From the NCBI RefSeq assembly GCF_003574085.1, contig NZ_QWKZ01000018.1:1-36285 (forward strand): a DNA stretch of 36,285 bases, in the 5' to 3' direction. The notes under the pieces were generated by a model. It did no database searches and was not told the origin of the DNA. It was given only the letters and a program-made list of their open reading frames with translations. The position numbers were made by a program, and so were the translations under genes. Source of the stretch: Meiothermus luteus (lineage in GTDB: Bacteria; Deinococcota; Deinococci; Deinococcales; Thermaceae). Positions 25,502 through 31,209 of this stretch are shown piece after piece. Numbering within the stretch: position 1 is the stretch's first letter; every line of letters starts with the position of its first letter.

Positions 25502-28500
25502 ATGCGCATTGAGCGGCTGATTGTTCAGGGCTTCAAGTCGTTTGGCGAGCGGACCAGCCTGGAGTTTGGGCCTGGCGTCTACGGAATTGTGGGGCCCAAC
25601 GGTTCGGGAAAGAGCAACCTGGTGGAGGCCCTGCGCTGGGCGGTGGGGGCCCGGGCCCGGGAGCTTCGGGGGGAGGAAGCGCTTTCCCTGATCTTCCACG
25701 GCTCAGAGGAGCGGGCTCCCCTGGGCTTTGCCGAGGTGACCCTGGAGCTGGGTGGAGGCGGCCGCCGGGTGGTGCTGAGCCGCCGCCTGGAAAGGGACGG
25801 AAGCGGTGAGGTGCGCCTGGGAGGGGTGCGCAGTAGCCTTCGCCAGGTGGAGCAGGCCCTGATGGGCACCGGCCTTTCCCGCAGCGGGTACGCCATCGTG
25901 GGGCAAGGCGAGGTGGGCCAGGTCCTGCAGGCTGGGCCAGCGGTTCTGCTCGGTTATCTGGAGGAGGCCGCGGGGCTACGGGCGGTGGCCCAGGCCAGCC
26001 GGGTGGCCCAGGAACGGCTGGAGGTGGCTGGCCTCGAGCTGGACCAGCGCTCCAAGGAGCTGGCTGAGCGCAGGGCTACCTTGGCCGAAAAGGCCCTCCA
26101 GCTCGAGGCCTCTCGAAAGGCCAAGGCCCTAGCCGCCCGCGCCCTGGCCCTAAAGCGCGGCCTCCTCCTGGCCCGGGTGCGGGAGGCCGAGCAGGAGGCG
26201 GCGGCTTCCCGGGAGAGGGCACAGGCCCTGGAGGCTGAGCGGCAGGGCATTGAGCTGCGGCTGCGGGCTCTAGAAACCCTAAAACAGGAGGCCTCAGAGG
26301 AGCTGGAACGGGCCCAAAGCGCCTACGCCGAGGCCCTGCGCCAGGCCGAGGCCCTGGCTGGGGAGCTGCGGCTGGTAGAGCAGGAGCAGGCTTCGTTGGA
26401 GCGGCTTTTGGGACGGCTCCAGCGGGAGCGGCAGGAGCAGCGGGAGCGGCTTGAGAGGCTCCGTTCGCTAGAACCCCCATCCCCGCCCCAGGAGCCAGAG
26501 CCCAACCCCTCCACCCTGCAGGAGGCCGAGCTTCGCCTGAGGGAGCTTCAGCAAGGCATACGCGCCGAGGAAGAGCGGCTTCGGGTCCGGCGGCGGGCCT
26601 ACGAGGCCTACCTTCAGGCCCAGGCCAGGTATCAAGCCCGCCTGCAGGTCTACGAGGAGGCCCAGGCCCAGCGCGAGGCCCTGGAGGCTGAGGAGGCCCG
26701 CTTGCGCTCTGAACTAGAGGCCCTAAGGGACCGGATTTCCCAGATCCAGGCCCGTGAGCGGGAGCTGCGGGCCAGGCTGGAGGAAGGCCGCCGGGAACAA
26801 GGGCGGCTTTTGGGCGAGGCCCAAGGGGCCCTTTCCGAGGCCCGCCGCCTGGAGGACCTGCTGCGTTCGGGCGCCGACCTGGCCGAGGGGCCTAAGCGGG
26901 CCCGCGCGGCGGGAATCCCCGGCATTATCGGGGTGGTGGCGGATTTGCTGCAGGTACCCGCGGGCCTCGAGCTGGCCCTGGAGGTAGCCCTGGGCGCTCG
27001 GATGCAGTGGGTGCTGGCCGAGGACGAGGGGGCTGCCCAGGCGGCCATTGAGTACCTCAAGCGGCACGGGGGGCGGGCCACCTTCCTCCCTCGAAGCCTG
27101 CTCAAGCCCCCGCGGGGGGGACCAGACCTCAGCGGCCACAGCGGGGTGGTGGGCCAGGCCCGCCGGCTGGTGGCCCTGCCGGCCTGCCCGGAGGCCCTGC
27201 CTGTCCTTCTGGGGGAAACCCTGGTGATGGAGAGCCTCTCTGCGGCCCTGGCCTTGGCCCGCCGCTACCCCCAGCATCCCCGCTTGGTGACCCTGGAAGG
27301 GGAGCTCTTGGAGAGCAGCGGGGCCCTCACCGGAGGACGGATGCAGCGGGGAGGGCAGGCGCTGGCGCTTCGGCGCCGCTACCGGGAGGCCCTTTCAGAG
27401 GCCCAGCGCCTGGAGGAAGAGGCCAGGGCCATCGGAAGACGCCTGGAAGCTCTCCAGGCTGAGCTGGATGGCCTTGGCCTGCCGGCCTTGCGGCAGCAAG
27501 AGGCCCGGTGGGCCTCCGAGCTGGGGGCGCTCCGCTCTAGCCTGGCCCGGCTGGCCCAGGGCCCGCCCCCCCAGGCCCCCACCCCGGTGGAGTCTCCTGA
27601 CCCAGACCGCCTGGAGGGGCTCCGCCGTGAGCAGGAGCTTCTGGCCGCCCAGCTTGCGGCGGCCCGGGAGCTCTACCAGCGCTGGCAGCGCTACCGGGAA
27701 GGACAGGAACGCTACTGCCTGGCCCAGCAGGAAGCCCGACAGGTGGAGGAGCGCATTGCGGCTTTGCAGGCTGAGGAGGAGGAGCTGTCCCAGCGGCGCT
27801 CGGCCCTCTTGGAGCGCAAAGAGGCCCTGCAGCGGGCCCGTGAGGCGCTTCGGCTTAGGCCTTTGGAAGAGCGCCTGGACCTGGCCCGGCAGCAAAACCG
27901 CGTCTTAGACGAGGAGGGGCGGCGCCTTCTGGCTCGAGCCAACCAGCTTCTGGCCGAGCTGGAGGCCCTCCACCTGGCCCAGGCCCGCCGCGAGGCCGCT
28001 GCGGAAACCCTGCGTCAGGAGCTGGCCACGCTGCCCCCGGGGCCGGCCGAGACGGGGTCGGTCCGCAGCCTGGCTCGAGCCCTGGCCGAGGTTGAGGCGG
28101 CCCTGGGTTCCTTGGGCCCCGTCAACCACCTGGCCGAGCAGGAACACGCCCACCTGGAGGAGGAGGTGGGCCGGCTCGAGGCGGCCCTGCAGGAGGCAGA
28201 AGCGGCCGCAAAGCGCCTAGAGGAGGAGCTTCGGCGGGTTGAGTCAGACTACCGGGGGCGGCTGGAGCGGGTCTATGCCCGCTTTAAGGAGCGCTTCGCC
28301 CACTACGCCAAGGCCCTGCTGGACGCCGAGGTCGGCCTGGAAAAGGGCCCCCAGGGGCTCGAGCTGGTGCTCAGACCCGCCGGTAAGCGCACCGTGAACC
28401 TGGGCCTCCTGTCCATGGGGGAGCGCACCATGGGGGCTTTGGCCTTTCTTTTCGCACTCGCGGAGATTGGGGAAGGGAATGGGCTTCCTATCGCCGTGCT

Positions 28501-28702
28501 AGACGAGGTGGACGCGCCTTTGGATGAGGCCAACCTTCAGCGCTTTTGCGGCTTTCTGCGGCGCTTTGGGGCCCAGACCCAGTTCATTCTGGTTACCCAC
28601 CAGAAGCGCACCATGGAGGCCTGCGACGCCCTCTACGGGGTGACCACCGACCGGGGGATAAGCCGGGTCTACAGCATCAGGCGGGCCGAGGCGTTGGCCT
28701 GA
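25502..28702 (+). CDS. smc: Chromosome segregation protein SMC
   Basis: This 1066-residue condensin subunit is shorter than the usual 1150-1200, mostly in the coiled coils. Walker A is GPNGSGKSN (31-39). The first coiled coil is about 160-450, the hinge about 455-600 (IPGIIGVVADLLQV...), and the second coiled coil about 610-900. The head has Walker B AVLDEVDAPLDE (Asp1001, Glu1002) and the H-loop FILVTHQKRTM. The ABC signature reads LLSMGERTMGALAF (969-982), with Met where LSGGE is usual. GGAG lies seven bases before the ATG. It starts 14 bases after the GerMN gene. ScpA and ScpB are not in the window. Confidence 0.95.
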   Translation: MRIERLIVQGFKSFGERTSLEFGPGVYGIVGPNGSGKSNLVEALRWAVGARARELRGEEALSLIFHGSEERAPLGFAEVTLELGGGGRRVVLSRRLERDGSGEVRLGGVRSSLRQVEQALMGTGLSRSGYAIVGQGEVGQVLQAGPAVLLGYLEEAAGLRAVAQASRVAQERLEVAGLELDQRSKELAERRATLAEKALQLEASRKAKALAARALALKRGLLLARVREAEQEAAASRERAQALEAERQGIELRLRALETLKQEASEELERAQSAYAEALRQAEALAGELRLVEQEQASLERLLGRLQRERQEQRERLERLRSLEPPSPPQEPEPNPSTLQEAELRLRELQQGIRAEEERLRVRRRAYEAYLQAQARYQARLQVYEEAQAQREALEAEEARLRSELEALRDRISQIQARERELRARLEEGRREQGRLLGEAQGALSEARRLEDLLRSGADLAEGPKRARAAGIPGIIGVVADLLQVPAGLELALEVALGARMQWVLAEDEGAAQAAIEYLKRHGGRATFLPRSLLKPPRGGPDLSGHSGVVGQARRLVALPACPEALPVLLGETLVMESLSAALALARRYPQHPRLVTLEGELLESSGALTGGRMQRGGQALALRRRYREALSEAQRLEEEARAIGRRLEALQAELDGLGLPALRQQEARWASELGALRSSLARLAQGPPPQAPTPVESPDPDRLEGLRREQELLAAQLAAARELYQRWQRYREGQERYCLAQQEARQVEERIAALQAEEEELSQRRSALLERKEALQRAREALRLRPLEERLDLARQQNRVLDEEGRRLLARANQLLAELEALHLAQARREAAAETLRQELATLPPGPAETGSVRSLARALAEVEAALGSLGPVNHLAEQEHAHLEEEVGRLEAALQEAEAAAKRLEEELRRVESDYRGRLERVYARFKERFAHYAKALLDAEVGLEKGPQGLELVLRPAGKRTVNLGLLSMGERTMGALAFLFALAEIGEGNGLPIAVLDEVDAPLDEANLQRFCGFLRRFGAQTQFILVTHQKRTMEACDALYGVTTDRGISRVYSIRRAEALA

Positions 28703-30061: not shown

Positions 30062-31096
30062 TCAGCTTTCTTCCTCGAGCCTGTCCACCAGGGAAAAAAG
30101 CCCTTCCATATCCATCTTGGCGTAAATTGCGCTGGTGTTCACGTTGGCGTGGCCCAAAAGCCTGGCGGTGGCGTGGAGGTCCCGGCTCTTTCTGTAGATG
30201 CGGGTGCCCGCGGTGTGCCTGAGCAGGTGGGCCCCGTAGTAGCGGGGGGGAAAACCCAAGGTGCGGTAGTGCCGATTGAGCCGCTCCCGCAAGGTCTTCT
30301 CGGTCATGCCCCGGCCATGGCCCTTGCGCTCTCCCAGGTTGATGAGCAGGTGTTTATCGCCAGGGCGGGCGTGGGCCCGGCGGACTAGCAGCCAGGCCGA
30401 AAGCTCCTCGGCCAGCGAGCGGGAAATGGGAACGCTGCGCCGCTTCCCGCCTTTTCCGGTTACCTCGAGCAGCCGTTCCTCCAGGTGCACCTCCGGTAGC
30501 TCCAAGTTAACAACCTCACTTATGCGCAGTCCGGCTTCGCCCATGAGCCGTACCGCCAGCCGGTCTCGGCGGGCCTGGGGCTCGTCGTGGGCTAGATGGG
30601 CCAGGAGCCTCTGGTAAAGCTCCAAGGGCAGGGCTGGGCGGCGTTCGTGGGCTGGGGTGGGGTCCTGCGGGGCCCGTGCCTGGGGCAGCTCGGCGGCTTT
30701 GGCCCAGGCTAGGGCCCGGTAAAATGAACGCACCGCGGCCAGGTAGGTAGCGATGCTGCCGGGTTTGAGGGGGCTGGGGTTTGGGTTGAGGTGCCCGCCT
30801 TGGGTTTCCAGGTCGTGTACCCAGCGGTCAAGGTCATCGCCGGTGGCCTTCAAGATTTCTATCTTAGGCCCACAGGCCCCGGGCGGCCAGGCCCAGGCCA
30901 GATAGTCGCGGATGGCCACCTGGTACAGGGCTAGGGTTTTTGGGCTCAGCCGGGCCCGTTTGCGGCCCTTGAGCACCAGGTAGGCATGGTGTAGCTCGAG
31001 CAGCTTTTCCTCGTCGCGCTCGTGCGCGGCTCGAATGGCCTCAAGGCGCCGCTTGGCGGGGTTTTGCCAGGTGCTCAGGGGAACTAGAGCGCCCAT
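30062..31096 (-). CDS. Xer-type tyrosine recombinase
   Basis: This 344-residue protein is a complete tyrosine recombinase: N-terminal SAM-like DNA-binding domain (about 30-150) and catalytic domain with Arg191 (AGLRISEV), Lys at 215-218 (TGKGGKRR), His290 and Arg293 (AHLLRHTAGT), His316 (LLGHANVNTS) and the nucleophile Tyr325 (AIYAK). Length and the GHANVNTS signature fit XerC/XerD-like chromosome-dimer resolvases rather than phage integrases, with an N-terminal extension of roughly 30-40 residues over typical XerD. The ATG at 31096 lies 6 bases after TATAGT (leaderless). A large dif-like palindrome lies 14 bases upstream of the start, so this may be a single-recombinase Xer system with its site beside its gene. 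Confidence 0.9.
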   Translation of the reverse strand: MGALVPLSTWQNPAKRRLEAIRAAHERDEEKLLELHHAYLVLKGRKRARLSPKTLALYQVAIRDYLAWAWPPGACGPKIEILKATGDDLDRWVHDLETQGGHLNPNPSPLKPGSIATYLAAVRSFYRALAWAKAAELPQARAPQDPTPAHERRPALPLELYQRLLAHLAHDEPQARRDRLAVRLMGEAGLRISEVVNLELPEVHLEERLLEVTGKGGKRRSVPISRSLAEELSAWLLVRRAHARPGDKHLLINLGERKGHGRGMTEKTLRERLNRHYRTLGFPPRYYGAHLLRHTAGTRIYRKSRDLHATARLLGHANVNTSAIYAKMDMEGLFSLVDRLEEES

Positions 31097-31102
31097 GGGG
31101 CC

Positions 31103-31108
31103 ACTATA
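31103..31108 (-). promoter_or_regulatory. Leaderless -10 box of the recombinase gene
   Basis: TATAGT on the minus strand ends 6 bases before the ATG at 31096. The -35 region falls inside the dif-like palindrome, so recombinase binding there could repress its own gene. Confidence 0.55.
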
Positions 31109-31110
31109 CC

Positions 31111-31144
31111 AAAAAGTGCGTTTAGGTATATAAACGCACTTTTT
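31111..31144. repeat. dif-like palindrome next to the recombinase gene
   Basis: Two perfect 14-bp inverted arms (31111-31124 and 31131-31144) flank a 6-bp centre GGTATA (31125-31130). The inner 11+6+11 layout (31114-31141) equals a dif site: left arm AAGTGCGTTTA, right arm TAAACGCACTT. E. coli dif has left arm GGTGCGCATAA and centre TGTATA, so both the GTGCG core and centre are similar. The outer A5/T5 would also allow a weak bidirectional terminator, which is the main alternative. Confidence 0.6.
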
Positions 31145-31209
31145 GTGTTGGGAACCCAGCGGCCCACGGGCGTTCAGACCGGATTAAGGATGGCTTTACT
31201 ACCCTCTGT

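Follow-up and report, generated by a model that had tools for sequence, protein, structure and literature searches.

We analysed a stretch of 36,285 nucleotides, here called the window, from the hot-spring bacterium Meiothermus luteus. It contains a perfect inverted repeat directly upstream of a gene for an Xer-type tyrosine recombinase, P0001, which is encoded on the minus strand. The features of this locus, in positions of the window, are the following.

30062..31096, minus strand: Xer-type tyrosine recombinase P0001, 344 aa, assigned from PF00589 (3.5e-28), the catalytic residues and solved relatives
31102..31107, minus strand: xer promoter element, a −10-like box (TATAGT) located after the site and before the ATG, assigned from the sequence and from a TATACT/TATAGT-like box at the same place in relatives
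31110..31145, no strand: dif candidate, the whole site, with perfect 15-bp arms and a 6-bp centre, single copy in the genome
31110..31124, plus strand: outer arm CAAAAAGTGCGTTTA, the distal copy relative to the map, a putative binding site for one Xer protomer, its dyad kept with covariation
31125..31130, no strand: 6-bp centre GGTATA (TATACC in the xer direction), the proposed strand-exchange region, constant in length and variable in letters among aligned relatives
31131..31145, minus strand: second arm TAAACGCACTTTTTG, a putative binding site for the second Xer protomer

A dif site has a core of about 28 bp, made up of two inverted arms and a centre of 6-8 bp; it is present in a single copy per chromosome and lies near the replication terminus, at the turn of the GC skew. 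An initial sequence-only reading had proposed such a site here, formed by two perfect 14-bp arms around GGTATA. The repeat and its centre (31125-31130) were as described, but each arm extends one base further, giving 15-bp perfect arms at 31110-31124 and 31131-31145. The 28-bp core at 31114-31141 was correctly identified as an 11-6-11 arrangement, and the gap between the site and the xer ORF is 13-14 bases, in agreement with the 14 bases originally given. Perfect 15-bp pairs with a spacer of up to 40 are expected by chance about 0.001 times in the whole window. One strand of the site folds with z = −3.9. When up to 3 mismatches were allowed, the site had one match in the 2.87-Mb M. luteus genome (G000, a draft of 224 contigs).

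P0001 carries the complete R-K-H-R-H-Y catalytic set (R191, K215/K218, H290, R293, H316 and Y325), as the sequence-only reading had claimed. Its best NCBIfam matches are XerC, XerD, XerA and XerS, and every one lies far below its cut-off, with scores of 132.9 against 335 and 118.3 against 330 for the XerC/XerD equivalogs, 92.8 against 267 for XerS, and 115.4 against 220 for archaeal XerA (NF040815). Its sequence relatives among solved structures are XerD, an XerC-like XerA, and XerH (2.8e-15 for XerH). An SMC gene is located at 25502-28702 of the window, 1.4 kb from the end of xer and near the dif candidate.

The site had also been thought to cover the −35 region of xer. This is true of its position only: no good −35 was found for xer, and the conserved element is the −10 box outside the right arm. 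From its start region, the xer mRNA is predicted to be probably leaderless. Because the site adjoins the xer −10 box, it is plausible that binding of Xer there would lower its own transcription.

Conservation was assessed in 50 Thermaceae genomes. A pattern search of these 50 genomes for the site, tolerating 3 mismatches, recovered only the copy in the window, a result that would be misleading if taken as a lack of conservation, because the letters of the site diverge while its symmetry stays. P0001 itself has a match in 50/50 genomes and a clear orthologue (53-89% identity) in 22 non-Thermus genomes and one genome of the genus Thermus; among the named matches of this gene are those in Meiothermus rufus and a Meiothermus MAG. 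The region upstream of the orthologues has a common layout, with a 14-6-14 dyad about 27-34 bases 5' of xer and, between it and the start codon, a TATACT-like box; the dyad letters vary widely (AAAAAGTGCGTTTA, AAAATGCGCACTTA, AAAATTTCCCCTAA and others). Across 19 aligned sites, 88.7% of cells are paired compared to 71.9% in shuffles, both sides have changed in 10 of the 14 arm pairs, and pairing is below 50% when the partner is shifted by one column. The arms are thus alike, perfectly in the window and to this extent across the relatives, such that one protein might bind both. The arms are asymmetric in some relatives (L005-L007), the G010 Xer lacks an upstream dyad, and in G011 the xer gene is cut by the contig end. 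A covarying dyad of this kind would be expected where a protein dimer binds and the arms keep pace with shifts in its binding specificity. The prediction that the site stays next to xer in relatives was borne out by the dyads of the 19 aligned genomes and, as far as these alignments indicate, the gene and its site form a unit that recurs across the Thermus family with changing letters and preserved symmetry.

The chromosomal position of the site was assessed by sampling skew in stretches of relatives, with the cumulative skew of G008 taken on contiguous 1.4-1.8 Mb. In G008, a closed chromosome in one contig (3097457 bp), dnaA is located at 55 and the site at 1588868, which is 51% of the way round; the GC skew is positive before the site and negative after it, and the cumulative GC-skew and keto maxima are 29 kb and 11 kb away, respectively. 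The G001 site lies 63% along a 3.25-Mb map but within 69 kb (GC) or 64 kb (keto) of the cumulative maximum, and therefore it tracks the skew turn rather than geometry. For G018 the fit is loose, with 90-170 kb between the site and the change in skew sign. The M. luteus window has a skew of +0.022 to the left and −0.005 to the right of the site, in a stretch too short to count. The predicted location at the skew turn is confirmed in G008 and G001 and looser in G018, with the near-terminus position of these orthologous sites being shared partly by descent.

None of the 50 Thermaceae genomes encodes an XerC/XerD above the NF001399 cut-off, and every one contains other tyrosine recombinases. A covariance model (R1) was built from 19 sites, all picked upstream of xer; the window site scores 45.5 bits against it. 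Of the 23 genomes that have this Xer, R1 finds sites in 21, and it finds none in the 27 that lack it (Fisher 4e-12). The co-occurrence of the model sites with xer is by construction because of how they were picked, and thus the informative part is the extra sites outside the model, which are present in 13/23 genomes with the Xer and in 0/27 without it (Fisher 3e-6). The extra sites have other 6-bp centres and mostly arms like those of the dif of their own genome (a mean of 3.1 differences, compared to 7.9 with permuted genomes; p 5e-5, with relatedness not fully corrected). In G002, an extra site shares even the odd C in TTAGCGG with its own dif; the two extra sites of G000 are unlike its dif, with 8 and 11 differences. 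One extra site is on a 348-kb contig of G001, probably a plasmid, away from any recombinase. Many others have an integrase of about 390 aa a few hundred bases away, and several are upstream of integrase genes or other promoters. The extra sites are best read as places where the host Xer would resolve plasmids and circular forms of integrative elements. The earlier expectation of one copy per chromosome therefore holds for the exact sequence in G000, but not for similar arms with other centres, which are found on plasmids and mobile elements.

A second Xer (~60% identity) is present in G005, G017, G021 and G000; upstream of it, equally far from the gene, is a different dyad, TATTTCGCATAA-GTAAAA-TTATGCGAAATT or similar. 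In M. luteus, this second gene is split over the end of contig G000:C176 and the start of G000:C184, with the same dyad at the gene start. In Thermus spp., the Xer is a different, unrelated-looking one (~30% identity), and CGCGAAA-GGTACA-TTTCGCG immediately precedes its −10 box. This Thermus site is identical or nearly so in most Thermus genomes, and the Thermus xer is 0.49-0.55 of the way round from dnaA in G029, G048, G024 and G041, with contigs treated as whole chromosomes. The symmetry of the Thermus site is confined to the inner 7-8 bases of each arm, which is why it escaped a 12-6-12 dyad scan; it was recovered by a motif search. In plasmid-type relatives of the Thermus Xer (L248-L252), the dyad differs again.

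Several individual Thermus loci depart from this pattern. The arms are kept and the centres changed to GCGCGA in L225 (G045) and to GATTTC in L240 (G028), and on a different contig of G028 there is a further site, whose centre, GGTATC, is near-standard. At G024:C3:579634-579656, Thermus-type arms with another centre are found near a 394-aa integrase (578170-578931), which parallels the Meiothermus elements. One genome of the genus Thermus (G037:C23:63052-64092; L024, L066) is without the genus-typical Xer and the invariant site, and has a Meiothermus-type Xer with its own dyad; here, the whole xer-dif module looks to have been replaced.

From these comparisons, we consider it very probable that the repeat serves as the dif site of the chromosome, in a single-recombinase Xer system that resolves chromosome dimers. 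The original dif assignment is strongly supported by the single copy of the site, its retention beside xer in relatives and its proximity to the skew turn in closed relatives. In the proposed mechanism, two P0001 protomers would bind the two near-identical arms, four protomers would bring together the two dif sites of a chromosome dimer, which would be resolved by strand exchange across the 6-bp centre. The gene and the site would be one heritable unit near the replication terminus, and Xer bound directly upstream of the −10 box would probably also reduce xer transcription. Plasmids and integrative elements, by combining host-like arms with private centres, could have their multimers resolved by the host Xer without being recombined with dif.

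The dyad could instead be only an operator for self-repression by Xer, or by another dimeric regulator, with recombination occurring elsewhere or absent. Its place directly upstream of a conserved −10 box would suit an operator, as would the several extra sites that precede integrase genes or other promoters. The strict 6-bp spacing, however, is that of a tyrosine-recombinase core site, and the proximity to the skew turn in G008 and G001, the plasmid copy far from any recombinase, the extra sites with changed centres and host-like arms, and the two Thermus genomes with a changed centre and unchanged arms all speak against a purely regulatory role, which we regard as improbable.

Still less probable is a reading in which xer and its site belong to a mobile element, or to what was once a plasmid, and serve its resolution or integration rather than being the chromosome's own system. 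In its favour, paralogous modules whose arms differ are present in the same genomes, a plasmid and integrative elements carry similar sites, and in the window the site borders a transposase-like region. Nevertheless, the module was counted in 22/22 Meiothermus-type genomes and is at the terminus in closed chromosomes, and no other Xer above the XerC/XerD cut-off is available. We give hardly any credence to an intrinsic transcription terminator or a chance palindrome. The latter is refuted by the chance expectation for the window. A terminator would fit the good RNA folding and the stem followed by a T run on either strand in M. luteus, but it was rejected since the stem has only 4-5 G-C pairs, a terminator scan did not report the site, the T run is gone in L018 and L020 where the dyad is kept, and just upstream of a conserved −10 box is not where a terminator belongs.

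Compared with known Xer systems, the predicted Meiothermus dif system is most readily set beside those with one recombinase, of which XerS, XerH and XerA (PMC5357621) and XerL (PMC9765430) have been described. In XerS/difSL of streptococci and lactococci, the single recombinase likewise has its site immediately beside the gene and near the terminus (PMC5357621), but the difSL arms are imperfect and unequal with an 11-bp centre, in contrast to the near-perfect 14-15 bp arms and 6-bp centre in M. luteus. According to its published description, XerL/dif of the Legionellales shares the single recombinase, the perfect-dyad arms and the dif-bearing mobile elements (PMC9765430). The Meiothermus site is linked to xer, whereas the XerL dif is not: dif and xerL of L. 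pneumophila are >400 kb apart, and the arms are 10-12 bp (PMC9765430). XerH/difH of Campylobacter and Helicobacter also combines a single recombinase with a site near the gene, and the solved XerH is among the sequence relatives of P0001, but difH has a different sequence and only partial dyad symmetry (PMC9765430). Archaeal XerA/dif has a single recombinase and an 11-6-11 site, and XerA matches P0001, although far below the XerA cut-off; the xerA-dif linkage varies in archaea (PMC5357621). XerCD/dif of most bacteria has the same 11-6-11 core and one site near the terminus, but uses two recombinases and asymmetric arms, unlike the Thermaceae, which are without XerC/XerD above the cut-off. Judged by its sequence features, the Meiothermus system resembles XerS/XerH in the linkage of site and gene and XerL in its perfect dyad, and P0001 scores below all the named Xer cut-offs.

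We found no account of a dif in Meiothermus or Thermus in the literature searched and, within the same scope, a single-recombinase xer-dif module is undescribed in the Deinococcota. A 2026 survey was unable to identify a canonical dif in Deinococcus radiodurans (PMC13342612), and Deinococcus, Thermus and Meiothermus are absent from the main text of a genome-wide dif prediction of 2011 (PMC3025954). The present analysis provides concrete, testable dif sites for Meiothermus, Thermus and their relatives, and suggests where to look for dif in Deinococcus. The many diverged recombinase-site pairs constitute a natural experiment on the co-evolution of tyrosine recombinases and arms, and the heat-stable Xer proteins are attractive for biochemistry. 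For the Deinococcota as a class, we tentatively suggest, with somewhat less than even confidence, that self-contained single-recombinase modules are used, in which a palindromic dif in the promoter region of its own xer would couple dimer resolution to xer expression; such modules may pass between lineages as a whole, and plasmids and integrative elements may exploit them by mimicking the host arms while keeping private centres.

Among more distant Xers, no clear dyad was found upstream of family f3 and others, for which the gene searched may not be the housekeeping Xer. Family f4 has the dyad TATTCCCGTTAA-GGGAAA-TTAACGGGAATA and variants, and dyads are also present in some f5 genomes. Two further loci concern mobile elements of Meiothermus. 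An integrative element with a Prim-Pol and a 393-aa integrase carries an Xer-type site, the 134 bases around which are identical in four Meiothermus genomes (L109-L113). In M. luteus, a second, diverged DNA polymerase III beta clamp (L123:8504-9508, G000:C1) is located near an extra Xer-type site and an IstB-like ATPase, in a region that is probably a mobile element.
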